Assembly: GCA_001464585.1 (NCBI GenBank)
Contig: LNFF01000006.1
Span: forward strand, 124,001 to 188,000
Reading direction: 5' to 3'
Origin: Gammaproteobacteria bacterium Ga0077554
Lineage (GTDB): Bacteria; Pseudomonadota; Gammaproteobacteria; Ga0077554; Ga007554
DNA: 64,000 nucleotides
The notes under the pieces are model-generated. The model did not search any database. It was not told where the DNA came from and worked only from the letters and a program-made list of their open reading frames with translations. Of this stretch, positions 2,139 through 60,850 are shown piece after piece. The position numbers and the translations under genes were made by a program. Positions within the stretch are counted from its first letter, which is position 1; every line of letters starts with the position of its first letter.

Positions 2139-2167
2139 CGGCTTGTCACTACAGTATGGAGAAACAC

Positions 2168-4603
2168 ATGCACTACATACGCTATTTTTCTGAATTGGGC
2201 ATCAAGGATGTGGCTCTGGTAGGCGGCAAAAACGCCTCGCTGGGTGAAATGATCAGCGCATTGTCGGCACAAGGCGTGAAGGTGCCTGACGGCTTTGCCA
2301 CCACGGCACAAGCCTATCAGCATTATATTGAACATAATCACTTACACCAGCGCATCGCCACTGCGCTGGCCGATTTAGATATTAAAGATGTACTGGCATT
2401 GGCCACCACCAGCGCGAAGATCCGCCAGTGGATTATACGTGGCGAAATGCCCGATGATCTTGCCGATGAAATTCGTGCGGCTTATCAGGAACTCGCCACA
2501 ACGTACGGCCCCAGCCCCGACGTAGCCGTACGCAGCTCTGCAACCGCTGAAGACTTGCCCACCGCCTCCTTCGCCGGCCAACAGGAAACCTATCTGAACA
2601 TCCGTGGCACAGACAATCTTCTCAACACCTGCAAGCACGTGTTTGCCTCACTGTTCACCGACCGCGCCATTTCATATCGTGCAGACAAGGGTTTTGAACA
2701 TATGGACATCGCCTTGTCTATCGGCGTGCAAAAAATGGTGCGCGCTGATCAGGGCACATCAGGAGTCATGTTCACTCTCGACACAGAAACCGGTTTTCGG
2801 GATGTAGTCTTCATCAACGCCGCCTACGGCCTTGGCGAAAACATTGTGCAAGGCGCAGTGAATCCCGATGAATTCTATGTCTTCAAGACCACTCTTGAGA
2901 AAGGCTTTCGCCCCATCATCAAGCGCCAGTTGGGTGACAAAGCCATCAAGATGATCTACAGCAACGATGCCATGGCGGGGACTTCAACGCGCAATGTCGG
3001 GGTACGGCGCGAAGATCAGCAGCGCTTTGCCTTGACGGATGATGAAGTGCTGACACTGGCGCGTTATGCCGTGATTATCGAACGCCATTACTCCCGGCAA
3101 AGCGGGCGCGATATGCCCATGGACATCGAGTGGGCCAAAGATGGCATCAGCAATGAACTGTTTATCCTGCAGGCGCGTCCTGAGACCGTGCATGGCGTAA
3201 GCGACCGTCTTGTACAAGAAAGTTATCGCCTCAAGAAACGCGGCTCGGTGTTAACCATCGGCAAGAGTGTCGGGCAAAAAATCGCTACCGGCCGTGCGCG
3301 CGTCATTCTTGAAGCCGCGCACATGCATGACCTGCAACCGGGCGAAGTGTTGGTGACCGACATCACCGATCCGGATTGGGAGCCTATCATGAAAATCGCG
3401 GCGGGCATCATTACCAATCGCGGTGGACGCACCTGCCATGCCGCCATTGTCGCCCGCGAGTTGGGCATTCCCGCCGTAGTGGGATGCGACAACGCCACGC
3501 ACGTTATTACCACCGGCACACCCGTCACCATCTCATGTGCTGAAGGCGATACTGGTTATATCTATGAAGGTTTATTGCCGTTTACGGTGGAACATAGAGA
3601 TTTAAGCGCCCTGCCGCGTCCCAACACCCACATCATGATCAACCTGGGCAACCCAGAGCAAGCTTTCGAAGTGTCACGTCTACCCAACGATGGCGTAGGA
3701 TTGGCGCGCCTCGAATTCATCATCAACACCAGCATCCGCATTCATCCACGCGCGGTGCTTGAATACCCCACCCTTGCCCCCGCACTGCAAGAGCAGATTG
3801 CTGCGATCTGCGCTGGCTACACTGATCCAAAAACTTTTTACATCAACCGGCTCGCCGAAGGCGTGGGCACCATCGCCGCTGCCTTTTATCCCAAACGCGT
3901 CATCGTGCGCATGAGTGACTTTAAATCCAATGAATATGCGGCACTGGTGGGTGGCAATGAATTTGAACCGGAAGAAGAAAATCCGATGATCGGTTTTCGC
4001 GGCGCATCGCGTTACCCTTCAGCGCAATTTGCCGAATGTTTCGCGCTGGAATGCGCCGCCATGCGCCAGGTACGCGAGGTGATGGGATTAGACAATGTGG
4101 CGCTGATGATACCCTTTGTGCGTAGCGTTGAAGAAGCGCATAAAGTGCTCGATTTAATGGCCGAACATGGCCTGAAACGCGGCGTGCAAGGTTTAAAGAT
4201 TTATATGATGTGTGAAATTCCCGCCAACGCACTGCTCGCCGATCAATTTCTCGTATACTTCGACGGCTTCTCCATCGGCTCGAATGACCTCACCCAACTG
4301 ACGCTGGGCGTGGATCGCGACTCCGGCATCGTCGCCGGCTTTGACGAACGCAATCTGGCAGTACTCAAGCTTATGGAAATGGCTATCCATACCTGCCGCA
4401 GGCTGGGAAAATATATAGGCATCTGTGGCCAGGCGCCTTCGGATTATCCGGAAATTACCCGTTGGCTGGTACAGCAGGGTATTGACTCCATATCGCTTAA
4501 TCCTGACAGCGTGTTACACATGACAGAAGTGGTGCTTAAAATGGAACAAGAACGAGCGGGGCAATATGCGGACGCCAATCAATCAAACTCAACTATGATA
4601 TAG
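2168..4603 (+). CDS. ppsA: Phosphoenolpyruvate synthase
   Basis: PEP synthase converts pyruvate, ATP and water to phosphoenolpyruvate, AMP and phosphate, the entry step of gluconeogenesis from pyruvate. The 811-residue protein has the N-terminal ATP-binding pyruvate-phosphate dikinase domain (RSSATAEDLPTASFAGQQET), the swivelling phosphohistidine domain GGRTCHAAIVAREL with His424, and the C-terminal TIM barrel ending in IGICGQAPSDYPE, whose Cys is the catalytic acid in this family. The start at 2168 is chosen because GGAGA at 2158-2162 lies at proper spacing and the family N-terminus is YIRYFSELG. An in-frame ATG at 2156 lies upstream. Its pairing with pgm suggests a gluconeogenic/glycogen role. 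Confidence 0.96.
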   Translation: MHYIRYFSELGIKDVALVGGKNASLGEMISALSAQGVKVPDGFATTAQAYQHYIEHNHLHQRIATALADLDIKDVLALATTSAKIRQWIIRGEMPDDLADEIRAAYQELATTYGPSPDVAVRSSATAEDLPTASFAGQQETYLNIRGTDNLLNTCKHVFASLFTDRAISYRADKGFEHMDIALSIGVQKMVRADQGTSGVMFTLDTETGFRDVVFINAAYGLGENIVQGAVNPDEFYVFKTTLEKGFRPIIKRQLGDKAIKMIYSNDAMAGTSTRNVGVRREDQQRFALTDDEVLTLARYAVIIERHYSRQSGRDMPMDIEWAKDGISNELFILQARPETVHGVSDRLVQESYRLKKRGSVLTIGKSVGQKIATGRARVILEAAHMHDLQPGEVLVTDITDPDWEPIMKIAAGIITNRGGRTCHAAIVARELGIPAVVGCDNATHVITTGTPVTISCAEGDTGYIYEGLLPFTVEHRDLSALPRPNTHIMINLGNPEQAFEVSRLPNDGVGLARLEFIINTSIRIHPRAVLEYPTLAPALQEQIAAICAGYTDPKTFYINRLAEGVGTIAAAFYPKRVIVRMSDFKSNEYAALVGGNEFEPEEENPMIGFRGASRYPSAQFAECFALECAAMRQVREVMGLDNVALMIPFVRSVEEAHKVLDLMAEHGLKRGVQGLKIYMMCEIPANALLADQFLVYFDGFSIGSNDLTQLTLGVDRDSGIVAGFDERNLAVLKLMEMAIHTCRRLGKYIGICGQAPSDYPEITRWLVQQGIDSISLNPDSVLHMTEVVLKMEQERAGQYADANQSNSTMI

Positions 4604-4610
4604 TGTAAAA

Positions 4611-5294
4611 ATGTCTGTTGAAAAATGCTCATCACGCGATGTATATGACGCCCTGCGGGAAATGATTCTCAGTTTTGAGCTATATCCCGGCAGCCGCATT
4701 ACTGAAACTGAACTTGCCGATAAGTTTGGCGTAAGCAGAACCCCGGTGCGTGGTGCGTTGCAACGCCTTGAGGCCGAAGGCTACATCACCATCCTGTCCA
4801 AACAGGGCTGCTTTGTCCGCAATATCGACATCGACTCCCTCACCAGTTATTACCAGGTGCGTATCACCTTAGAGATGTTGTCTCTGGAAAACGCGTGCAT
4901 CCATATGCCGGAAAAAGAACTTAAAAACCTTGCCGAGACATGGGATCCACAACATCAGAAAGGACGTACCGACAACGCCGACGAAATGGAAGCGTGGGAC
5001 GAAGCCTTTCACATGACGCTGGCCGAAGCGGGCGGCAATTTTGCGCTCGCCGAGTATCTGAACGACATCAATCACCACATCCGCGTGATTCGCCGCCTCG
5101 ACTTCACTGATCCACACCGTGTCGACAAAACCTACGACGAGCATTATCTCATCTGCCAACACCTGTTACGCCGCGATCTCGCCGCAGCGCAAGCCTTGAT
5201 GCGGTCGCACATCACACGCAGCGAACAATTCGCTAAAACCCTTACATTAACCCAACTCGCCAGACGTAAGCCGACTTCCCCTACCCGTCAGTAG
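4611..5294 (+). CDS. GntR-family regulator, FCD subfamily
   Basis: A 227-residue transcription factor with an N-terminal winged helix (residues 8-75, including SRTPVRGALQRLEAEGYI) and a C-terminal all-helical FCD effector domain (about 85-210). The FCD domain shows the metal-binding pattern of D in EAWDEAFHMTL and later histidines. FCD regulators normally bind small acids or amides and repress adjacent catabolic genes. It lies 7 bases after ppsA but directly upstream of the biuret operon, and a perfect palindrome typical of FCD operators lies in that operon's promoter (5481-5490). I infer that it controls uptake and hydrolysis of biuret-like compounds. The effector is unknown. Confidence 0.85.
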   Translation: MSVEKCSSRDVYDALREMILSFELYPGSRITETELADKFGVSRTPVRGALQRLEAEGYITILSKQGCFVRNIDIDSLTSYYQVRITLEMLSLENACIHMPEKELKNLAETWDPQHQKGRTDNADEMEAWDEAFHMTLAEAGGNFALAEYLNDINHHIRVIRRLDFTDPHRVDKTYDEHYLICQHLLRRDLAAAQALMRSHITRSEQFAKTLTLTQLARRKPTSPTRQ

Positions 5295-5316
5295 CCACTT
5301 TCACGCCCTACTTTGG

Positions 5317-5329
5317 AGCGCCCTGCGCT
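5317..5329. promoter_or_regulatory. Interrupted palindrome upstream of the biuret promoter
   Basis: AGCGC-CCT-GCGCT lies about 150 bases upstream of the predicted sigma-54 start site, a distance usual for enhancer-binding activators such as NtrC. It does not match the NtrC consensus well, and it could instead belong to the end of the GntR gene transcript, though no T-run follows. The rest of 5295-5450 is strongly AT-rich, with no gene seen. Such a stretch could be a DNA-bending region, but no clear IHF site was found. Confidence 0.25.
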
Positions 5330-5451
5330 TTAATGATGCAAAAACTTCATCTTTAGATCAACAACATCCCCTTATTTTCATTACACTTAACTTCACAATA
5401 AAACAATAATATATTGAATATTAAATAATATATCCTCTTACCCTCCCCTCT

Positions 5452-5467
5452 TGGCACAAATCTGGCT
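5452..5467 (+). promoter_or_regulatory. Sigma-54 (RpoN) promoter of the biuret operon
   Basis: The sequence TGGCACAAATCTGGCT matches the sigma-54 consensus TGGCACG-N4-TTGCW at all but two positions. It keeps the invariant GG (5453-5454) and GC (5465-5466) at the required spacing of ten bases between them. The predicted transcription start is near 5478, leaving a leader of about 87 bases before the porin ATG. Sigma-54 control fits a nitrogen-scavenging operon because NtrC-type activation is the common route for such genes. No convincing sigma-70 promoter was found in the same gap. Confidence 0.72.
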
Positions 5468-5480
5468 AGTCAATATCTCG

Positions 5481-5490
5481 TTGTATACAA
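5481..5490. promoter_or_regulatory. Candidate GntR/FCD operator TTGTATACAA
   Basis: A perfect 10-base palindrome lies just after the predicted start site of the sigma-54 promoter, where bound repressor would block transcription. FCD-type GntR proteins characteristically bind short palindromes with a TTGT...ACAA frame. The neighbouring regulator gene at 4611-5294 is the obvious candidate protein. The same 10-mer occurs at 32638-32647 near the integrase, so the sequence alone is not proof. Confidence 0.55.
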
Positions 5491-5564: not shown

Positions 5565-6365
5565 ATGAAAATTAAAACACCCTTATCATTCCTCGGCACT
5601 CGCCCCTCTCGACGCCTCGCCGTAAGCACTGTGCTTGCAGCCGCAGCGCTAAGCGCGAACATCTCGGTTCAGGCCGCCGACTGGAGCAGCACCAATGTTC
5701 AATACCTCTATGGCACCAATTACGCAGACACATTTGGCATTGATGACAAGGATAAAGTCGTGTTCACTTTTGAGCATGCCAACGGATGGAAATACGGTGA
5801 CAACTTCTTCTTCCTGGATGTTTCCAACCCCGGCGATAAGGGCACCACTTATTACGCAGAATTTTCGCCACGCCTGAGCTTCGGCAAGATCTCTGGCAAC
5901 AGCATGGCGTTTGGCATTGTCAAGGATGTGCTGTTATCCGGCACCTGGGAAATGGGACAAGGCCTGCGCGCCTATCTGCTGGGCGTGGGGCTGGCACTGG
6001 ATCTGCCGCACTTCGCGTTCGCCGACTTCAATTTGTACTGGCGTCAGAGTGAGCGTGACTTTATAGCAACCGATACTAATGCTGGCGCGCAAATTACCAT
6101 CGACTGGCTAGTGCCGTTTAAAGTCGGCGCAATGAAACTCGCATTTGAAGGCTTTGTCGATTACGCTTTCGGCGAGGATGGCGGCAACGCCCCCAAGGAA
6201 GATAACCTGATTGCCGGGCCACGCCTGCTGGTAGACGTAGGTGATATGTGGGGCACGCCGGGCCAACTACAGATGGGCGTTGAATACCAGATCTGGAGCA
6301 ACAAATTTGGCATTAAAGGTGTAGATGAGGATGTGGCTCAGTTGATGGTGAAATGGACCATGTAA
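5565..6365 (+). CDS. Tsx-like outer-membrane channel
   Basis: A 266-residue beta-barrel protein of the nucleoside-specific channel (Tsx/OmpK) family. The start at 5565 follows GGAGA (5554-5558). It opens with a long signal peptide ending SVQA before ADWSS. Family features are FTFEHANGWKYGDNFFFLD near residue 67, SPRLSFGKISG, and a C-terminus KWTM with the aromatic/hydrophobic ending of outer-membrane proteins. As first gene of the operon it probably lets the small amide substrate (biuret, triuret or a nucleobase-like compound) cross the outer membrane. Classical Tsx carries nucleosides, so the substrate is inferred from the downstream enzymes. Confidence 0.85.
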   Translation: MKIKTPLSFLGTRPSRRLAVSTVLAAAALSANISVQAADWSSTNVQYLYGTNYADTFGIDDKDKVVFTFEHANGWKYGDNFFFLDVSNPGDKGTTYYAEFSPRLSFGKISGNSMAFGIVKDVLLSGTWEMGQGLRAYLLGVGLALDLPHFAFADFNLYWRQSERDFIATDTNAGAQITIDWLVPFKVGAMKLAFEGFVDYAFGEDGGNAPKEDNLIAGPRLLVDVGDMWGTPGQLQMGVEYQIWSNKFGIKGVDEDVAQLMVKWTM

Positions 6366-6394
6366 TTGCAAATCAGCAACGGGAGAATTAACCA

Positions 6395-7528
6395 ATGAAA
6401 AAAAATGAAGTTGATAACAAACGTCGCACCTTGCTGAAAGGCGCACTAGCAGTTGGCATGGCAACGGCATTGGGTGGATTGTTACCCAGCAAAGCATGGG
6501 CAAAAAAGAAAGTCGGTATGGGGTTCATTTATGTGGGGCCGCGCGACGATTATGGCTACAACCAGTCGCACTATGAAGGAAAATCATCGCTTGCAAAGCT
6601 TGATTGGGTAAAAGCCGTTGATCAGGAAAATGTACCGGAAACCATTGAAGTGCAAAAGGCCATGGAGAGCATGATTAACCTTGATGGCATACAGATTGTA
6701 TTCCCTACTTCCTTCGGTTATTTCGACCCGCATATTCTCAAGATTGCGCCCAAGTATCCGGACGTTATGTTCCTGCATTGCGGTGGATTGTGGGATGCCA
6801 AAAAGCACCCGAAAAATGTCGGCAGTTATTTCGGCTACATCGACGAAGCGGTGTATGTCGCTGGCATTGTAGCAGGCCATATGAGCAAAACCGGCAAACT
6901 CGGCTTTATTGCCGCCATGCCTATCCCGCAAGTGTTGCGCAACATCAACAACTTCACACTGGCTGCGCGCAGCGTTAATCCCAAGATCACCACCACGGTA
7001 GTATTCACGGGTGGCTGGTCATTGCCAGTAAAAGAGGCTGAAGCGGCCAATAGCTTGATCGACCAGGGTATCGACGTACTGACCTGTCATGTTGACAGCC
7101 CCAAAGTAGTGATTGAAACCGCCGAAAAGCGTGGCATTTATTCCTGTGGTTATCACACCAATCAAGCCGTGCTTGCCCCGAAAGGATTTTTGACCGGCGC
7201 GCAATGGAACTGGAGCAAGGTCTATCAAGACTATGCTGAAATGATTTCCAAAGGCACAAAAATTCCTAACCTGGTGCGCGGTGGATTCAAGGAAGGCCTC
7301 GTGACCAGCTCACCCTATGGCAAAGTAGTGAGTGCAAAGGCCAAAGAACAGGCGGACAAAATGCGTGCTTCATTCATGAATGGTTCAATGGTGGTATACA
7401 AAGGTCCCATCAAAGATAATACCGGGCGCGTTGTGATTGCGGCAGGCAAGGAATACAAGCAAACCGATATATGGTTAGAGGGCATGGACTGGCTAGCCGA
7501 GGGTGTCATTGGCAGCACAAAAGGCTAA
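6395..7528 (+). CDS. BMP-family ABC transporter substrate-binding protein
   Basis: A 377-residue periplasmic binding protein of the BMP/PnrA family, whose members bind nucleosides or related compounds. The N-terminus has NKRRTLLKG followed by a hydrophobic stretch ending AWA, a twin-arginine-like signal, so export may use the Tat route. There is no lipobox, unlike many BMP lipoproteins. The body shows GFIYVGPRDDYGYNQSH and CHVDSPKVVIETAEKRGIYSCGYH, typical of the BMP fold. GGGAG at 6381-6385 supports the start. The two permeases and the ATPase follow. Substrate inferred from context: biuret or a related ureide. Confidence 0.88.
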   Translation: MKKNEVDNKRRTLLKGALAVGMATALGGLLPSKAWAKKKVGMGFIYVGPRDDYGYNQSHYEGKSSLAKLDWVKAVDQENVPETIEVQKAMESMINLDGIQIVFPTSFGYFDPHILKIAPKYPDVMFLHCGGLWDAKKHPKNVGSYFGYIDEAVYVAGIVAGHMSKTGKLGFIAAMPIPQVLRNINNFTLAARSVNPKITTTVVFTGGWSLPVKEAEAANSLIDQGIDVLTCHVDSPKVVIETAEKRGIYSCGYHTNQAVLAPKGFLTGAQWNWSKVYQDYAEMISKGTKIPNLVRGGFKEGLVTSSPYGKVVSAKAKEQADKMRASFMNGSMVVYKGPIKDNTGRVVIAAGKEYKQTDIWLEGMDWLAEGVIGSTKG

Positions 7529-7564
7529 TGTAACGCTGTCAACGCCGCACAATTGGGTCTCTCT

Positions 7565-8611
7565 ATGATGGGACGTTTGTTTGAACCGATAGTTATCCCG
7601 TTTGCGGCCTTACTGGTAGCGTTGCTACTGTTCGGAATATTTATCACGGCAGCGGGAGCCGATGCGCTAGGTGTCTTCGAGTCCATGTACCGGGGTGCAT
7701 TCGGCACCTGGTTTTCCTGGCAAAACACGCTGGTGCGTGCCGCGCCGTTAATGCTTACTGCCTTGTGTACTGCATTACCGGCGCGGATTGGTTTGATTAT
7801 TATTGGTGGCGAAGGCGCCGTGGTGGTGGGCGGCATGACGGCGGCATTAACCGGTATTGTGCTGACCCACGCATCACCGATTATCGTGCTCACTGCCATG
7901 GCTTTTATGGGGATGACCACCGGCGGCTTGTGGATCGCCGCTATCAGCGCGTTGCGCCACTACCGGGGCGTGAATGAAACCATCAGCTCATTACTCCTCA
8001 ACTATATCGCCATTGCAATAATGAACTTTCTGGTTTTCGGCCCGTTGCGCGATCCAGAGACGCTCAACAAACCCTCCACCTATCATATTGGCGAAGCTAA
8101 TATGCTTACTGAAATGGGCAGCACCTCCATACACTGGGGTTTTGGCCTGGGAGTGATAGCCTGCGTAGCATTGTGGGTGCTGATGCGCCATACACCGTTT
8201 GGTTTCGCCGTTGATATTACCGGGGGCAACATGCGGGCCGCAAAATTATCCGGCTTGCCGGTGGCGCGCTTGATGATTATCACCTCATTGCTGGCGGGCG
8301 CCGCTGCCGGCCTAGCCGGCATGATTGAAGTCGCTGCGGTGCATGGCCGTGCCAATAGCTCACTGAATGCCAATTACGGTTACGAAGGTATCCTCGTCGC
8401 CTTCATCGCACGTCACAATCCCCTCGCCATTATCCCGGTCGCCATTCTGTTTGGCGGGATTCGCGCCAGCAGCGGTCTGCTGCAACGCGATCATGATCTG
8501 CCCGATGCCAGCAGCCTGGTGCTGCAAGGCATTATTTTTATCGTGATTCTCGCCAGTGAAACCTTGTACGGACGGTTTTCCTGGCTGCGAGCCAAGGAGA
8601 AAACAGTGTGA
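7565..8611 (+). CDS. ABC transporter permease, BPD_transp_2 family
   Basis: An integral membrane permease of about 348 residues with eight or more hydrophobic segments and the family motif ALPARIGLIIIGGEGAVVVGG near residue 70. It pairs with the next gene to make a heterodimeric inner-membrane channel for the BMP-type importer. The start is uncertain: ATG 7565 is used, ATG 7568 and TTG 7553 are alternatives, and no strong ribosome binding site is seen. The stop codon overlaps the next gene's GTG start by four bases. Confidence 0.88.
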   Translation: MMGRLFEPIVIPFAALLVALLLFGIFITAAGADALGVFESMYRGAFGTWFSWQNTLVRAAPLMLTALCTALPARIGLIIIGGEGAVVVGGMTAALTGIVLTHASPIIVLTAMAFMGMTTGGLWIAAISALRHYRGVNETISSLLLNYIAIAIMNFLVFGPLRDPETLNKPSTYHIGEANMLTEMGSTSIHWGFGLGVIACVALWVLMRHTPFGFAVDITGGNMRAAKLSGLPVARLMIITSLLAGAAAGLAGMIEVAAVHGRANSSLNANYGYEGILVAFIARHNPLAIIPVAILFGGIRASSGLLQRDHDLPDASSLVLQGIIFIVILASETLYGRFSWLRAKEKTV

Positions 8612-9534
8612 ACGAAACCGAGTTTAGCCTGTTGAATATCCTGATTGCCGTGATCGGCGGCGCAATTCGTGTCGGTACGCCGTTTCTGTTTGTGAGCCTT
8701 GGCGAATGTCTGACAGAACGCAGCGGACGTATCAATCTGGGCCTGGAAGGCACTTTGATGATGGGCGCCATGACGGGCTATGGGGCTTCCTATCTCAGCG
8801 GCTCACCGTGGTTAGGCGTGATGGCAGCGGGCATGACAGGTGTGATACTCGGGGGCGTGCATGCGTTATTGTGCCAGCAACAAAAAGTTAATGATATTGC
8901 CGTGGGCATCGCACTGATGTTGCTGGGCACCGGCCTGGCGTTCTTTTTAGGCAAGCCACTGATCCAGCCCACCGCTGCGCACTTGCCCGCACTTCATCTC
9001 GGTAGTTGGAGCGATTCACCGGTGATTCAGGCCGCACTGGATATCAATGTACTGTTTGTGATGGGCGCCCTGCTCGCACCTGCCATGGCGTGGTTTTTCC
9101 GCTATTCACGCTGGGGATTGTATGTGCGCACTGTGGGTGAAAGCGCCGATGCGGCACGCGCCATGGGCTTGAATGTAAATCGTGTGCGCATGTACAGCAC
9201 TATGGCGGGCGGTTTTCTTGCCGGTGTCGGCGGATCATTTTTGTCGCTTTACTATCCCGGCGGATGGAGTGAAGGCTTATCCAGCGGCCAGGGATTAATG
9301 GCTGTGGCGTTGGTGATTTTTGCGCGCTGGAATCCGGTGTATTGCCTGTATGCGTCTCTGTTATTTGGCGCTGCCGCAACCCTGGGTCCCACCTTGCAAT
9401 CCATCGGCATGACGTGGGGCTATTATCTGTTTCATGCCGCACCTTATGTGCTGACCCTGATCATCATGATAACCACATCGTCGAGCACACGCCTGCTATC
9501 GGGCATGCCGGGCCAGCTTAGCAATGTTAAATAG
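8608..9534 (+). CDS. ABC transporter permease, BPD_transp_2 family (second subunit)
   Basis: A 308-residue multi-spanning membrane protein with the diagnostic loop SLGECLTERSGRINLGLEGT, typical of the shorter permease of nucleoside-type BMP transporters. It starts with GTG in the overlap GTGA with the preceding permease and has AAGGAGA at 8594-8600. The overlap suggests translational coupling and fixed stoichiometry of the two permeases. Confidence 0.9.
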   Translation: MNETEFSLLNILIAVIGGAIRVGTPFLFVSLGECLTERSGRINLGLEGTLMMGAMTGYGASYLSGSPWLGVMAAGMTGVILGGVHALLCQQQKVNDIAVGIALMLLGTGLAFFLGKPLIQPTAAHLPALHLGSWSDSPVIQAALDINVLFVMGALLAPAMAWFFRYSRWGLYVRTVGESADAARAMGLNVNRVRMYSTMAGGFLAGVGGSFLSLYYPGGWSEGLSSGQGLMAVALVIFARWNPVYCLYASLLFGAAATLGPTLQSIGMTWGYYLFHAAPYVLTLIIMITTSSSTRLLSGMPGQLSNVK

Positions 9535-9576
9535 TACTGATATTGACTGTCACTATACGAACTAAACAGGTGAGTT

Positions 9577-10257
9577 ATGAGCTTATACGTACCGTCTGAT
9601 CCCTACCCATGGCCCTACAACGGCGATCTCAGACCCAGCAATACCGCGATTATTGTTATTGACATGCAAACTGATTTTTGCGGAAAAGGCGGCTATGTGG
9701 ACAAAATGGGATATGACCTGTCACTCACCCGATCCCCCATCGAACCGATTAAAAAGGTGCTGGCTGTGGTACGCAAACAAGGATTCACCGTTTTTCACAC
9801 GCGCGAAGGCCACCGCCCTGATTTGTCAGATTTACCAGCCAATAAACGCTGGCGCAGCCAACGCATCGGAGTAGGTATTGGCGATGCTGGACCCTGCGGA
9901 AGGATTCTGGTGCGTGGTGAACCGGGCTGGGAGATTATTGCTGAGTTGACGCCTTTGCCTGGTGAACCCGTCATCGACAAACCCGGCAAAGGCTCATTCT
10001 ACGCCACCGACTTAGACATGATGTTGAGACAACGTGGCATCGTCAACATCATTCTCACTGGCATTACTACCGATGTATGTGTGCATACCACGATGCGCGA
10101 GGCCAACGACCGTGGTTATGAATGCCTGTTACTCGAAGATTGCTGTGGGGCCACTGACTATGGAAACCATGTGGCAGCGATAAAAATGGTGAAAATGCAG
10201 GGCGGTGTATTCGGCGCCGTATCAAATGCCAAACAACTTATTGCGACCATTGCATGA
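9577..10257 (+). CDS. biuH: Biuret amidohydrolase
   Basis: A 226-residue cysteine hydrolase of the isochorismatase-like superfamily that splits biuret to allophanate and ammonia. The expected catalytic residues are Asp29 (VIDMQTDF), Lys135 (IDKPGKGSF) and Cys168 (TTDVCVHTT), plus Gln208 (KMQGG). From memory, the characterised Rhizobium leguminosarum BiuH uses Asp36, Lys142, Cys175 and Gln215; all four correspond here with a constant offset of seven. The N-terminal PYPWPYNG and the [20 protein letters not shown] block are also BiuH-like. The gene lies between transporter genes and is coupled to the ATPase by an ATGA overlap; the allophanate hydrolase that takes its product is three genes on. 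Confidence 0.9.
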
Positions 10258-11771
10258 CCATCCCTGACAAATACGCCCTTGAAGCACTCCATATCAACAA
10301 GCGCTTTGGCGCATTGATTGCGCTCAACGACGTATCACTGCATCTTGAGAAAAGCACATTTCATGCGTTACTCGGTGAAAACGGCGCAGGAAAAAGCACG
10401 CTGGTGAAGTGTATTATGGGATATTACGCCCCTGACAGCGGAGAGCTGATGATAGAAGGGAAGCAACATGATATTTCCAACCCGCGTCATGCCCATCAAT
10501 TGGGGCTGGGCATGGTATATCAGCATTTCACACTGATTCCCAATATGACAGTCATGGAAAACCTGGTTTTATCCCGCCCTCATCTGCCCATAAAAATTGA
10601 CTGGCGTGCAGAGCGAAAATCCCTACAGGAACGTATCGCGCAACTGCCCTTCCAGTTTCAACTGGATATTCCGGTAAGCCGTATGGCGGCAGGTGAAAAA
10701 CAAAAACTGGAAATCACCAAGCAACTGCTGCTGAACAGCAAAATATTGATCCTGGATGAACCTACTTCGGTACTCACTCCTGTGGAAGCCGATGAAGTCT
10801 TAGGTAAGCTACACGCATTAACGCAAGAAGGTGCATTAAGTGTGCTCATTATTACCCATAAATTCAGGGAAGTGATGACCTTTGCCGATGAAGTGACAGT
10901 ATTACGCAAAGGAAATTGCGTTGGCACCGCCACTGTTAAAAATGTGGACACACAACAACTCGCAAAAATGATGGTGGGCACAGAGTTTGTTAAAAAAACC
11001 TTGCACCGGCAACCGTCACTCGCTCAGGAGGCGCGCCTGGAGATTCATAATCTCAAGGTCAACGATGACACCCAAGCCCAGGCGGTTAATAATCTTTCAT
11101 TAACCGTACATAGCGGCGAAATCGTGGGCATCGCTGGGGTATCAGGCAATGGTCAGCGTGAACTGGTAGAAGCCCTCAGCGGCCAGCGCTGTACGAGTGG
11201 CGGCGAAATACGTGCACACAAACAACCCTACCAGGGCCGACGCGAAGATATGCGCAAAAGCCATTTCTATTGCCTGCCGGAAGAGCCGTTACGGAATGCG
11301 TGCGTACCGGCCATGAGTATTGCTGAAAACATGGTGTTTCGTAATTTTGATCACCTGCCCTTCACACGTTACCGCTGGTTATTGGATCGCCGCGCCATGC
11401 TACATCATGCCAGGGAGCTGATCAGCCAATACAAAATTCGCACCCCGGGGCCTCACGTACCGATTGCAACACTCTCTGGCGGCAACGTACAACGCGCTGT
11501 ATTAGCCCGCGAACTGGAAAATGAAGTTGATATATTAGTGGTCGCAAACCCATGCTTTGGCCTGGATTTCAGCGCTGTTGCAGAGATACACGATAAGATC
11601 ATGCAAGTGCGTAACCGGGGCGGGGCGGTGCTGCTGGTCAGTGAAGATCTGGATGAAATCCTGGAATTGAGCGACCGACTCATGGTGATGTCCGGGGGAA
11701 AACTTGTTTACGAAACCATCCCCGCCCAAGCCGATCTGGCCACCATCGGCCGTTATATGGCAGGGCAATAA
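10254..11771 (+). CDS. ABC transporter double ATPase (BMP/sugar type)
   Basis: A 505-residue protein with two fused nucleotide-binding domains, as usual for BMP and ribose-type importers. The first has Walker [10 protein letters not shown], signature region [10 protein letters not shown] and Walker [11 protein letters not shown]. The second has the degenerate P-loop [14 protein letters not shown], signature [15 protein letters not shown] and a Walker B variant [12 protein letters not shown] where the usual catalytic Glu is replaced, common in the second half of this family. It powers the importer formed with the two permeases. The start overlaps the biuH stop (ATGA). Confidence 0.93.
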
Positions 11772-11772
11772 T

Positions 11773-12459
11773 ATGAATAAAAAAATGATAGAGGCACATC
11801 CTTATGCTTACTCTCTCACTGACACTCCCCCTGCACTGATTATTATCGACATGCAGCGTGACTTCATCGAACCCGGTGGGTTCGGCTCGAGCTTAGGCAA
11901 TGACGTGCGACCTTTAATGAAAATTGTGCCCACAATAAAACGCCTACTGGATCTTTATCGACGCCTGCACTTGCCGGTAATTCATACGCGGGAGGCGCAT
12001 AGTCCTGATTTACTCAACTGCCCACCCTCTAAAATCAATCGTGGCAATGCCATGCTTCGTATTGGCGATGCAGGCCCCATGGGGCGGGTGCTTGTCGACG
12101 GTGAACCGGGTAATGCGATCATCGATGCGCTAAAACCTCTACCGGGAGAAATAGAATTGACGAAACCCGGTAAAGGCGCATTTTATGCCACGCCATTGCA
12201 TTCGTTACTGCAGGCACGCGGCATAACTCATTTGCTGTTTGCTGGTGTTACGACCGAGGTTTGCGTGCAAACCACTATGCGTGAAGCCAATGATCGTGGC
12301 TATGAGTGCCTTCTCATTGAAGATGCCACGGAAAGTTATTTCCCTGAATTTAAGCGCGCCACCCTGGAAATGATAACCGCTCAAGGCGGCATTGTGGGCT
12401 GGTCGGCTTCGAGTATGCACGTTATAAAAAGTCTGGAGAGTGCATATGGCAACCCTTAA
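11773..12459 (+). CDS. Isochorismatase-like cysteine hydrolase, possible triuret hydrolase
   Basis: A 228-residue paralogue of the biuret hydrolase, with the triad Asp26 (IIDMQRDF), Lys131 (LTKPGKGAF) and Cys164 (TTEVCVQTT) and the shared block [14 protein letters not shown]. It differs around the active site: the [11 protein letters not shown] stretch of BiuH is [11 protein letters not shown] here, so the substrate is likely different. Known relatives include TrtA (triuret to biuret), RutB (ureidoacrylate) and other carbamoyl hydrolases. Sitting between the transporter and the allophanate hydrolase, a triuret or other biuret-precursor activity is the most economical guess, not proven. ATG 11773 starts right after the ATPase gene; the frame is open further upstream but overlaps it. 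Confidence 0.8.
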
Positions 12460-12817
12460 AAATTCTATTTTACTCGAGGATTTATTCAAGATAGCTGAAA
12501 ATCAGGATCAGTATGCCTGGAAACCCTTCCGGCAGGGTATTGAGATTTATAATTTATATGGGGGTGATGAACATCAGCCCGCAGCGGCATTGCTCCGCTA
12601 TCAAGCAGGCGCGTGCGTCCCCAGGCACCTGCATGAAGGTATAGAACATATATTAGTGTTATCAGGCGCACAATCTGACGACCACGGTGAGTATCCCGCA
12701 GGAAATCTTCTAATCAACTTTCCTGGCTCCCATCATCAAGTCACCAGCACCCAGGGATGTATTGTGCTGGCGATCTGGAATAAACCGGTTAGCTTTATCC
12801 AGGAAGAAAATTCATGA
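12446..12817 (+). CDS. Small cupin protein (ChrR-like cupin)
   Basis: A 123-residue single-domain cupin. The metal-binding pattern is visible as [16 protein letters not shown] near residue 53 and the later FPGSHHQV. It resembles the cupin half of ChrR anti-sigma factors but lacks the sigma-binding N-terminal domain. Such cupins recur beside allophanate hydrolases, possibly as ligand sensors or isomerases, but the role is unknown. ATG 12446 has GGAGAG at 12435-12440, overlaps the end of the preceding hydrolase by 14 bases, and its stop overlaps the atzF start, so it is translated within the operon. Confidence 0.8.
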
Positions 12818-14649
12818 CGTGGGATATGCTACACAGTAGTCTGGATATTTCTACTTTGCACCGGCACTACCTCACGGGAACCTTATCAGTTACCGATGTC
12901 ATCACTGCGGTGCTGGAACGTATTCGACACCGTGGAAAAGACCATGTCTGGATCAGTAGGGTCACTGCCGCAGAAATGTATCAACGCGCACGTCAACTGG
13001 ATAACCTGCATCATACCCCCGATTTATTTGAACGATACCCATTGTATGGCATTCCGTTCGCAGTAAAAGACAATATAGATGTTGCTGACATGTACACCAC
13101 GGCGGCGTGTCCAGCCTATGCTTATCTCGCGCAGAAAAATGCCACAGTGGTTCACAGGCTTTTGAACGCGGGCGCGGTATTGATCGGCAAAACCAATATG
13201 GATCAATTTGCCACCGGGCTGGTGGGCACGCGTTCGCCGTATGGCATACCAGTTAACCCTTTTGATCCGGCCTACATTCCCGGTGGATCCAGTTCTGGCT
13301 CTGCGGTGGCTGTCGCTACAGGATGCGTCAGTTTTTCCTTGGGCACAGACACTGCTGGATCAGGCAGAGTGCCTGCGGCACTTAACAATATCATCGGACT
13401 AAAACCCACCCGGGGCTTGCTCAGTACCCACGGAATAGTACCGGCCTGCCGCAGCCTGGATTGCGTATCAATATTTTCCCTGACGGTTGATGACGCCACG
13501 AAAATAATGGCCGTTACAGCCGGATATGACCCTGATGATCCATTTTCAAAATCTGAAGCGGATCGACAACACCCTGCGTTGCTGCCCGTATGCCGTAATT
13601 TCAAGTTTGGCGTGCCTGATGCGGCGAGCCTCACGTTTTTTGGAGATGCTGATTCAGAGCAATGCTTTTATCAAGCCATCGCTCAACTTCAGGCGTTGGG
13701 TGGAGAAGCCATAGAAATAGATTTTTCACCGTTCCGCCGCACCGCCGACTTGTTATATCAAGGCCCATGGGTCGCTGAGCGCTATCTGACCGTGGGTGAG
13801 CTTATGGAAAAAACACCCCACGAACTGCACACTGATGTACGCCAGGCTATTGAAACTGCTTACCGCTATGATGCTGCCGATGTTTATGCGGGCTTATATC
13901 AATTAAAGACGTTACAACAAGAAGCAGATCTCATTATGCGCACGATTGATTATCTGGTGACGCCTACCGTGGGTACCACTTACCCGATTAATGACGTGCT
14001 TGCCCAGCCAAAAATAACTAATCAAAATTTGGGTTATTATACCAATTTCATGAACCTGCTCGATTTATGCGCCATGGCGATACCTGCCGGAATGTTGCCG
14101 AATGGTTTACCCTTTGGCATTAGCATCGTAGCGCTACCGTATCAGGAAAATATGTTGTTTTCGGTGGCAGAGGCCTTTCATCGCACTGGCGGATTGTCCA
14201 CTGGAGCAACTCAACAACCGCTACCCATGGCATCTCCAAAAGCCCTCGCCATCAAAGATGAAAAGTATATCCGCCTGTGCGTCTGTGGCGCCCACATGTC
14301 GGGGCTGCCTTTGAATTATCAATTACTGGAATGTGGCGGCCGTTTATGGGCAAAAACACGCACCGCCCCCCATTATAAATTATATGCAATGGAAGATATG
14401 CAGCCACCTCGACCCGGCATGATACGCGCTGAAAATGGTGTGTCTTTAGATATTGAGGTATGGGAATTACCAATAGAGAAATTTGGTTACTTCATGCGAA
14501 AGGTACCTGCACCTTTATGCATTGGAACGGTGTACCTGGAAACCGGGGAGGCAGTCAGTGGTTTTCTTTGCGAACCCTTGGCATTGAAAGATTCCAGGGA
14601 CATTTCGTTAAAAGGTGGATGGCGAGCTTATCTGAAAGACGCATGTTAA
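12814..14649 (+). CDS. atzF: Allophanate hydrolase
   Basis: This enzyme hydrolyses allophanate to ammonia and CO2 and finishes biuret breakdown. It has 611 residues in two domains: an amidase-signature domain (1-450) and the C-terminal AtzF domain (about 475-605, ending in a WRAYL motif) that is specific to allophanate hydrolases. The Ser-cisSer-Lys triad is present as Lys85 (FAVKDNID), Ser159 (GGSSSGSA) and Ser183 (DTAGSGR), a constant offset of six from the AtzF numbering I recall for Pseudomonas ADP. No urea carboxylase lies nearby, so the substrate here comes from biuret and not urea. It is the last gene of the operon and converges on the ATPase gene with a four-base overlap of stop codons. 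Confidence 0.93.
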   Translation: MTWDMLHSSLDISTLHRHYLTGTLSVTDVITAVLERIRHRGKDHVWISRVTAAEMYQRARQLDNLHHTPDLFERYPLYGIPFAVKDNIDVADMYTTAACPAYAYLAQKNATVVHRLLNAGAVLIGKTNMDQFATGLVGTRSPYGIPVNPFDPAYIPGGSSSGSAVAVATGCVSFSLGTDTAGSGRVPAALNNIIGLKPTRGLLSTHGIVPACRSLDCVSIFSLTVDDATKIMAVTAGYDPDDPFSKSEADRQHPALLPVCRNFKFGVPDAASLTFFGDADSEQCFYQAIAQLQALGGEAIEIDFSPFRRTADLLYQGPWVAERYLTVGELMEKTPHELHTDVRQAIETAYRYDAADVYAGLYQLKTLQQEADLIMRTIDYLVTPTVGTTYPINDVLAQPKITNQNLGYYTNFMNLLDLCAMAIPAGMLPNGLPFGISIVALPYQENMLFSVAEAFHRTGGLSTGATQQPLPMASPKALAIKDEKYIRLCVCGAHMSGLPLNYQLLECGGRLWAKTRTAPHYKLYAMEDMQPPRPGMIRAENGVSLDIEVWELPIEKFGYFMRKVPAPLCIGTVYLETGEAVSGFLCEPLALKDSRDISLKGGWRAYLKDAC

Positions 14650-32539: not shown

Positions 32540-32717
32540 TTTAAAATCAATAGGTTACAAGGTTTCTCTTAAACTTCCTGATTTCTTTATTTAAATCCGT
32601 ACGCCCTGCGTGTAGCGTTTTTTGTATTTACGATTTGTTGTATACAATTATTTTTAATTATTTGCAATAGTTGCTTGCTGCTTGATTCTCAAAAAAAGCA
32701 GCAATTCGGCAATAACA

Positions 32718-33659
32718 TCAAATGAAATCACCCAACCGTGCATTCAGCAGCGAACGTAAATTATCCATATCCACCTCCACATATTCCAGAGTCATCCGCA
32801 TGTCCGTGTGGCCTAACAGATCCTGCACGGTCTTGATATCTGGGAACGGTCCACGCAGGAGTTTTGTTGCCAAAGTATGTCTGAAGCGATGCGGCGAAAT
32901 GGTTTTTCCTAATGTGCGAGACAAGCGTCTGAAGAATCCAGAAAGTTGTTCTTCGGTCATTACATCATGCATGTATCGATCATTAAATAATGTGACATTG
33001 AATACCTGCAAGGCAGAGATATCATCAATAGCCAGCCGTTCCAGCGTACGATTTCGCAGAAAAATAAGCTCAGATACCACTGCTGGCAACAATGGAATCT
33101 CCCATTCACGTCGAGTCTTGCTGCCTTCGACAACTAGGAGCAGCACACCTTGCTCCAAATCAACATGTCTCCAGCACATTTCTATAAGTTGGTGTCGCCG
33201 TATTCCCGTGCTAAAAAGTACTTTAATTACGATAACCCAAAACCATCTCGGCTGGAGATGATCAGTGCCACTCTCGTCTACTGCGTTACCTAGAAGATCG
33301 AGAGCGTGTTTTATTAGCTTATCGTCAAGGGTCTTCTTACGCTTGCGAGGTACGGGTGCAAGCTTTATCTCCTTAAAAGGATTTTTCGTGGCATAACCCA
33401 TGCGTACGGCAAAATTCCCAAGTACCCGCAAGTGCCTGAGATAATTATTCCAGGTGGTTGACTTGGCTCTCGCCAATACTTGATCACGAAATATTAGAAT
33501 CATGTCTCGGGAGATTTCTGTGAATGGGTAAACACCCACAGTGCGATTGAAAATTCCCACCACAAACCGAAAATGAATAACCGTTGCAGGCCTAAGCACG
33601 CTGTCTTGCATATACATGTCAAGCAAGGTATCAAGCGTGATTGAAGCGTGGCAATCCAT
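32718..33659 (-). CDS. Tyrosine-type site-specific integrase
   Basis: A 313-residue tyrosine recombinase that would integrate and excise the element. It has an N-terminal SAM-like core-binding domain (about 5-100) and a catalytic domain with the conserved residues: Arg in STGIRRHQL, HRFRH near residue 262, the LGHTDMRMTLEYV box with the second His and the nucleophilic Tyr of LEYV. The gene points toward the tRNA-Thr and ends about 180 bases from it. The AT-rich gap 32540-32717 holds no gene. No excisionase gene was recognised nearby. Confidence 0.92.
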   Translation of the reverse strand: MDCHASITLDTLLDMYMQDSVLRPATVIHFRFVVGIFNRTVGVYPFTEISRDMILIFRDQVLARAKSTTWNNYLRHLRVLGNFAVRMGYATKNPFKEIKLAPVPRKRKKTLDDKLIKHALDLLGNAVDESGTDHLQPRWFWVIVIKVLFSTGIRRHQLIEMCWRHVDLEQGVLLLVVEGSKTRREWEIPLLPAVVSELIFLRNRTLERLAIDDISALQVFNVTLFNDRYMHDVMTEEQLSGFFRRLSRTLGKTISPHRFRHTLATKLLRGPFPDIKTVQDLLGHTDMRMTLEYVEVDMDNLRSLLNARLGDFI

Positions 33660-59333: not shown

Positions 59334-60850
59334 CTCAATACTGTTAGTTTAACTGTTTTTTGCCTGTGAATACCACTTCCTTTTTGTTAAGGGCAGCGGT
59401 GGCACGAGCGTCGGTAGAAAAGTCTGCGATTGATTGATCGACAGGGTTCGATTGTGGTGGGCGAAGGGCGTATTTCGTCGCTTGACCATTCGTGGGTTTG
59501 TCTTGCCTCGACTGCTGACGCACAACAACACAGCGGCATGCGCCAACAATTGAACAAACCAACGTTTACGTAGACGTGGACGCACTGGGGGGGAATGCCC
59601 CAGACTGGGGCTGTGATCTGCGCAGCAACTGAACATTCGCCACGAAAGATAATGCTCGTGGTACCACCCCATGTTCTGCGGCTGCCGTGTACATGAGCCA
59701 ACGCACGGCATAGTGCGCCAACACCCAACCGTAAAACTCTTGACGCACCAAATTGGCGGTCTTGCTGCGCAGTGTCCGACGGCGCTGATGCAGGTGCGTC
59801 TTAAGCTCGTCAAATACGCTTTCAACTTCCCATCGCTCATGATACAGCGCCGCCAACTCAAGGGCGGGGGCGTGTTGCTCGTCGAGCAGCGTAGTCAGCA
59901 GTCGATATCTTGTCTCGGCGCCCTGCGTGCCAGGCAGGGTGTACTCGATGACGCGTACGGTGACGGCGGCGCTTTCATCCTTGCGTCGTGGCCCCTTGCT
60001 GGGGCGTATCTCGCTCAGAAATGAGCCATCGCCGAGCGACTGGATCACCGGCAGCTGTCGGTTGGACGTGCAGCGCCACACCAACTGAGAGCCAGTGGCT
60101 TTAGCACTACACCAATATTCGTAGCCATTAAATCCTCTATCGGCCAAACACAGCGTAGATGCGTTCAAACGGGAGAGTAGCGGTTTGCACACTGACCACT
60201 CCGAATCACGATAAGCCCCTATATTGGCGGCCACAATGGCGTGCGTGGCGCATTCCACGAGCACGGCGCATTGCGCCTGCGGGTAGCCTGCAACCCCTGT
60301 GCGACTGCCCGGATAACCAAAGGCGGCGATGTTGTCAGGCTCATCGGGTACCTCGAAGTTGCTGCCGTCTATCGCCATCAAGCGCAGTCCGCGATAAAAC
60401 GCGTGGGGGCAGGCAGCCTCAGCCGCCAAGGGTTGGCAACTGACCTCCTGCAGCTGTTTTAATACCGGCCATGACAGCCGTGAACGCGCCACGCTGATGG
60501 ATGATGGTTTGATGCTCTGTGGTACAGCCCCATGGTTTCGCCATGCAAGCCCTTGGGCGACAGCATCAAATACGTCGGCATAAGCCGCCTCGGGATACAA
60601 GCTCAGTGCCATGCAGTAGTAGACCACTGCTGAGGCCGGAAAGCGGCGTTCGCGCCGACTGTTGCATTGATGCACATCCAGGAGTTCATTGACGACCGAT
60701 CCTGGATAAATGCGCGCTAACAAACTCGTACTCAAATAGTCCGTAAGTCGTGCTCCACTACCCAAAACCGCCTTGGTTCTTGCCATGTCGTTCTCCGCTA
60801 TTGAGATAAGCAGATTCTGGCATGAAACTAGTTAAACTAACAGTATTGAG
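59334..60850. mobile_element. IS4-family insertion sequence, complete
   Basis: A 1,517-base element bounded by perfect 21-base terminal inverted repeats (59334-59354 and 60830-60850, outer sequence CTCAATACTG) with one transposase gene between them. The flanks read ACGTGC before and ACGTGA after the element, so a 5-base duplication ACGTG with one shifted base is possible but not certain. It cuts an Rhs remnant region from a truncated transposase gene. With intact ends and transposase it may still be mobile. Confidence 0.88.
59566..60786 (-). CDS. IS4-family DDE transposase
   Basis: A 406-residue transposase with the IS4 N-terminal domain (about 15-105) and the DDE catalytic core: Asp in LMAIDGSNFEV, Asp in LCLADRGFNGYE and Glu in YHERWEVESVFDELK (the Y-R-E-K region). 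The C-terminal end is Ser/Pro-rich. It is intact and framed by terminal inverted repeats. Confidence 0.95.
   Translation of the reverse strand: MARTKAVLGSGARLTDYLSTSLLARIYPGSVVNELLDVHQCNSRRERRFPASAVVYYCMALSLYPEAAYADVFDAVAQGLAWRNHGAVPQSIKPSSISVARSRLSWPVLKQLQEVSCQPLAAEAACPHAFYRGLRLMAIDGSNFEVPDEPDNIAAFGYPGSRTGVAGYPQAQCAVLVECATHAIVAANIGAYRDSEWSVCKPLLSRLNASTLCLADRGFNGYEYWCSAKATGSQLVWRCTSNRQLPVIQSLGDGSFLSEIRPSKGPRRKDESAAVTVRVIEYTLPGTQGAETRYRLLTTLLDEQHAPALELAALYHERWEVESVFDELKTHLHQRRRTLRSKTANLVRQEFYGWVLAHYAVRWLMYTAAAEHGVVPRALSFVANVQLLRRSQPQSGAFPPSASTST

Follow-up and report, generated by a model that had tools for sequence, protein, structure and literature searches.

A predicted sigma-54 promoter and GntR operator before a triuret and biuret degradation operon of a gammaproteobacterium

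Two-input control of nitrogen-scavenging operons is already known from the rut genes, with NtrC and RutR, and from the atz genes, with AtzR. In Escherichia coli, rutA-G is NtrC-dependent and repressed by RutR (PMC10891134), and rutA-rutR is among the RpoN/NtrC targets (PMC8743547). The atzDGEHF and atzRSTUVW genes of Pseudomonas sp. ADP have sigma-54 promoters, are induced by nitrogen starvation and are also under the substrate-responsive regulator AtzR (PMC6834077). Here we describe a new, well-conserved case in the gammaproteobacterium Ga0077554. We analysed 64,000 nucleotides of contig LNFF01000006.1 (the window) and propose, from sequence comparison and with a probability of about 0.83, that positions 5304-5490 are the control region of an operon for triuret and biuret uptake and degradation, carrying a two-input NtrC/sigma-54 and GntR switch. 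Triuret and biuret are fertiliser impurities and purine-oxidation products, and the proposal names the regulator and operator of their recently described degradation pathway, as well as a global input to it.

The E. coli rutABCDEFG operon resembles this one in combining NtrC with a local repressor. RutR, however, is a TetR-family protein, whereas the proposed repressor here is of the GntR/FCD type, and the rut pathway breaks down the pyrimidine ring rather than triuret and biuret. The atz pathway is chemically neighbouring, ends in AtzF and includes AtzT, a related purine-type binding protein (PMC6834077). Unlike the GntR/FCD protein, AtzR responds to cyanuric acid, up-regulating atzDGEHF and repressing atzRSTUVW. 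It belongs to the LysR family. The TrtA-BiuH-AtzF pathway of Herbaspirillum and Rhizobium has the same enzymes and operon content (PMC7948467), and nitrifiers share synteny with bmpA-nupABC and a gntR gene (PMC12625717); neither a promoter or operator nor control by nitrogen is described in the searched text of these two papers. In Rhizobiales, a different lineage, atzF was placed under NtrC as a prediction from comparative genomics, and the passage concerned describes no GntR operator (PMC5343134). In a Burkholderia ntrC mutant, a urea carboxylase gene was down 6-fold (PMC5491218). A literature search that included few subscription papers turned up neither a GntR operator nor a sigma-54 promoter described for triuret/biuret operons, an absence that is not proof, and a search for the literal operator sequence returned unrelated uses only.

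Promoter and operator at the start of the operon

The candidate sigma-54 promoter, TGGCACAAATCTGGCT, lies at 5452-5467 on the plus strand and was assigned from its spacing, its weight-matrix score and its conservation in relatives. Its T-GG (5452-5454) and GC (5465-5466) have the canonical -24/-12 spacing, as an earlier reading made from the sequence alone (the sequence-only reading) had claimed. With a weight matrix that is our approximation of the published consensus, the site ranked third among sigma-54 matches on both strands of the 64 kb. Since sigma-54 transcripts start 12 nt downstream of the -12 C, the predicted start is 5478 (±1-2 nt, plus strand). The candidate GntR operator, the perfect palindrome TTGTATACAA, occupies 5481-5490, that is, +4 to +13, and so begins three bases past the predicted start, just where the sequence-only reading had put it. 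Neither element is strong evidence alone in one sequence: the strict sigma-54 pattern has two occurrences in the window where 0.63 would be expected, and TTGTATACAA, with two perfect copies in the window against 0.02 expected, has three in the 2.9 Mb genome, which is about the chance count. Comparison across loci settles the case. The second copy of the palindrome, at 32638, has a tRNA on one side and an integrase gene on the other, and related genes are likewise missing around the third; a wider TTGTATACAA regulon in the genome was accordingly not inferred.

A search for relatives of the operon's binding protein yielded 80 loci, 48 non-cyanobacterial and 32 cyanobacterial. A strong upstream sigma-54 site was found at 30 of the 48 and at none of the 32, compared to 2% of random segments. 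Where the GntR protein was related to that of the window, the sigma-54 site was mostly followed by TTGTATACAA, TTGTATACAT, TTGTATGCAA or TTGCATGCAA. The sequence-only reading had proposed looking for the palindrome before homologous operons; TTGYATRCAA with at most one mismatch, 14-45 nt downstream of the sigma-54 site, was in place at 20 of 22 such loci, against 0.13 in shuffles. The operator mostly starts 19-29 nt from the promoter start, which places it at about -7 to +13 around the transcription start. The combination of promoter and operator recurs in a genome of the same genus (L003/L004), where TGGCACGAATCTAGCT stands at the position corresponding to the promoter, and in more than 20 homologous operons. 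This conservation, with rpoN encoded in the genome (Sigma54_DBD, 235 bits), supports the predicted use of sigma-54. It is very improbable that transcription of the operon comes from a sigma-70 promoter in the AT-rich stretch and that the sigma-54 match arose by coincidence. A single 9/12 match to a sigma-70 promoter was found (TTAACT-17-TATATT, 5387-5415) and was rejected, being at chance level (shuffle mean 0.5) and not conserved. What the relatives have in common is the sigma-54 site, not the AT-rich stretch, and the site is missing from cyanobacteria, a group without sigma-54.

The proposed repressor is the 227-aa GntR/FCD regulator encoded upstream at 4611-5294 (plus strand), in which the Pfam families GntR (PF00392) and FCD (PF07729) both score above their cut-offs. 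Across 34 homologues, its helix-turn-helix motif SRTP-R and the metal residues D/N/E130, H134, H178 and H200 of the FCD domain are conserved, and the three histidines are invariant in 34/34 sequences. The operator is present where a member of this GntR clade is encoded, at about the same position relative to the start. The FCD regulator of the Azospirillum operons is unrelated and falls on a branch of its own with full support; there the sigma-54 site is retained and the operator is missing, which ties the palindrome to this GntR clade. The claim of a GntR-type operator at the start site thus gains support from comparison. The palindrome might instead serve transcription of gntR, with GntR an activator or autoregulator and not a repressor of the operon. 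At L011, L012, L015, L017 and L046, gntR and the operon are divergently oriented with the palindrome between them, as such a role would have it. In the window and several relatives, however, gntR precedes the operon in the same orientation and at a distance from the palindrome, which at -7 to +13 of the operon start site is in a blocking position. We consider this alternative improbable, and repression of the operon is the role that we prefer for GntR.

Nitrogen input and the proposed switch

The genome encodes ntrBC, and its ntrC (locus L086) is a true ntrC (TIGR01818, 760 bits). An NtrC site and a sigma-54 site, TGCACCATTTTGGTGCT and TGGCATGAATCATGCT, lie upstream of glnA in the same genome, whose NtrC thus evidently recognises the usual site. 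Among the relatives of the operon, sites like TGCACN7GTGCA numbered 24 in the upstream 250 bp, compared to 4.2 in dinucleotide shuffles. Pairs of these sites 30-33 bp apart (about 31) were found at 14 of 28 loci, compared to 0.6 in shuffles, and 59 permuted half-sites used as a control gave pairs at two loci at most. IHF-like sites were present at -38 to -64, between the NtrC-like sites and the promoter, in 12 of 21 relatives (2.95 expected). These sites in relatives, with rpoN and ntrC in the genome, favour the nitrogen-status input that had been read from the window alone.

In the window itself, the candidate NtrC enhancer site is TGCGCTTTAATGATGCA (5324-5340, plus strand), which starts 128 bp upstream of the -24 element and, scored with a weight matrix derived from the sites of relatives, ranks among the best 0.006% of all 17-mers in the window. 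Its right half, ATGATGCA, is also found at the corresponding position in the same-genus relative. A possible second, weak site, CGCCCTACTTTGGAGCG (5304-5320, plus strand), ranked second in the upstream 300 bp by the same weight matrix; its spacing from TGCGCTTTAATGATGCA is 20 rather than 31, and it is uncertain. Between enhancer and promoter lies a candidate IHF site, TAATATATTGAAT in plus-strand letters (5407-5419, minus strand), with one mismatch to the IHF consensus and conserved in L004. Upstream of the transporter genes of the cyanobacterial homologues (L021-L079), NtcA-type GTAN8TAC sites were observed at 15 of 32 loci, many of them closely related, against 3.4 expected. Nitrogen control therefore seems to be conserved where sigma-54 is absent.

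From the comparison we infer GntR binding and repression, and NtrC action at the window promoter. Under nitrogen limitation, phosphorylated NtrC would bind upstream, near 5324, IHF would bend the DNA between enhancer and promoter, and NtrC would drive sigma-54 RNA polymerase to form an open complex at 5452-5467. Opening or promoter clearance would be blocked by a dimer of the GntR/FCD protein encoded next to the operon, sitting on TTGTATACAA across or just past the start site, until a pathway metabolite binds the dimer. With activation by NtrC and repression by GntR, expression of the operon would require both a shortage of nitrogen and the presence of substrate. The two-input switch of the sequence-only reading is thus right as far as comparison can show. 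The prediction spans many Proteobacteria and is testable in culturable relatives, and the locus offers a natural case for how a repressor bound at +1 stops sigma-54 polymerase.

Several observations weigh against this reading. The -14 base of the promoter is G where the consensus has T, its single clear departure. At L016 and L017 the best sigma-54 match comes after the palindrome instead of before it, the operator is absent near the promoter at L065, L081 and L082, which have a distant GntR, and the loci are partly related, so that counts among them are not independent. TGCGCTTTAATGATGCA has two mismatches to TGCACN7GTGCA and no partner at 31 bp, and the paired-site score of the window is unremarkable, with 14% of random segments scoring equally high. 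On biuret, growth of the Burkholderia ntrC mutant was improved rather than impaired, indicating that biuret use is not everywhere under nitrogen control (PMC5491218). Control of the window promoter by NtrC is likely, and it is the weakest step of the model because of the two mismatches and the missing partner. The promoter and operator could be real and the activator be another enhancer-binding protein, or NtrC acting from solution or from weak sites. The single mismatched site would fit this, as would the presence of about seven true enhancer-binding proteins in the genome. We nevertheless regard it as unlikely: homologous operons show a strong enrichment of paired NtrC-like sites, the pair in the same-genus relative is a good one, better than that of the window, and the remaining activators either fit the models for PEP-CTERM, NtrX or GlrR or seem, from sequence and neighbourhood, to be flagellar or pilus-related rather than local regulators of the operon. 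NtrC bound upstream of the promoter is thus the preferred activator.

Allophanate-hydrolase operons and the signal of the repressor

The combined pattern of promoter and operator was used to scan 369 genomes of the class and matched in seven. Control scans gave one match with a spacer one base too long and none with the reversed pattern. Five of the seven matches were at allophanate-hydrolase operons, preceding operons that contain or adjoin atzF and an FCD gntR gene. Three of these five are triuret operons, that of the window included. In the other two, a sigma-54 site and TTGTATACAW stand before atzF followed by a gene for a 1226-aa urea-carboxylase-like protein and an FCD gntR (L108), or before an ABC transporter, a nitrilase-like gene, an FCD gntR and atzF (L109, whose GntR is distant). 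Around the remaining two matches (G347 and G065) there were no related genes, and we treated both as chance. The motif may be used to find further nitrogen-scavenging operons.

The five neighbourhoods have allophanate hydrolase as their shared enzyme. Unlike biuret and triuret, allophanate and carboxybiuret are carboxylates. The metal-binding FCD/GntR repressors Atu1419, TM0439 and LldR have a site of three His and one Asp/Asn with the same N/D-x3-H spacing as here, and their effectors differ; in Atu1419, the zinc site lies in an effector pocket that held citrate (PMC7797058). The FCD metal site of the window's GntR matches that of Atu1419. From the shared enzyme, the carboxylate nature of allophanate and this metal site, we infer as a hypothesis only that the repressor may respond to allophanate instead of biuret. 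Of the substrate-specific repression claimed by the sequence-only reading, repression by GntR agrees with the operator and its link to the GntR clade; the ligand need not be biuret, as the module also stands before other allophanate-hydrolase operons. A broader possibility, speculative and less likely than not, is that this FCD-GntR family senses allophanate (or carboxybiuret) and, through a shared TTGYATRCAA operator on NtrC/sigma-54 start sites, gates several allophanate-forming pathways (triuret/biuret, urea-carboxylase-type and nitrilase/ABC), blocking DNA opening by the enhancer-dependent polymerase rather than its recruitment.

Operon content and surroundings

The genes of the operon (5565-14649) all lie on the plus strand and either overlap slightly or are separated by short gaps. 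A good ribosome site, the Shine-Dalgarno-like GGAGAAGG, precedes the first gene, which encodes a Tsx-like outer-membrane channel (5565-6365; Pfam Channel_Tsx, 5.6e-15). Next come the BMP/PnrA-type substrate-binding protein of an ABC importer (6395-7528; Pfam Bmp, 5.8e-44) and two permeases (7553-8611 and 8608-9534; Pfam BPD_transp_2). The importer ATPase, with two ATPase domains (10254-11771; Pfam ABC_tran, two stretches), follows the biuret hydrolase BiuH (9577-10257), which scores 419.9 bits with NCBIfam NF050097 (cut-off 370) and has 6azo/5bk6 and 6xjm (biuret hydrolase) as its best solved relatives. A TrtA-like protein with predicted triuret hydrolase activity (11773-12459) has the cysteine hydrolase 6xix/6xj4, which we take to be the TrtA structure entries, as its best solved relative (3e-91 to 6xix, compared to 2e-56 to biuret hydrolases). 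The last two genes encode a small cupin protein (12440-12817; Pfam Cupin_7), conserved in most homologous operons, and the allophanate hydrolase AtzF (12814-14649), at 752 bits with NCBIfam TIGR02713 (cut-off 511). The sequence-only reading had called the switch one for biuret use. Biuret stands, with BiuH above its cut-off, and the TrtA-like enzyme adds triuret; judged by its predicted TrtA-like, BiuH and AtzF proteins, BMP-type ABC transporter and Tsx-like channel, the operon is better named triuret plus biuret.

A ppsA-like gene lies between phosphoglucomutase and gntR in the window (2156-4611), and gntR begins 7 nt after it. In the same-genus relative, nothing separates phosphoglucomutase from the gntR gene that follows it, which points to gain or loss of the ppsA-like gene. 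The relative also has about 3 kb between its Tsx-like and binding-protein genes (L004, 5013-8001), where only an ABC ATPase-like stretch was seen (7056-7652, 26% identity). Further downstream, positions 32460-61000 of the window hold an apparent integrative conjugative element, with an integrase gene (32718-33659) beside a tRNA at about 32467, conjugation-type genes and then a transposase-like gene near 59566-60786.
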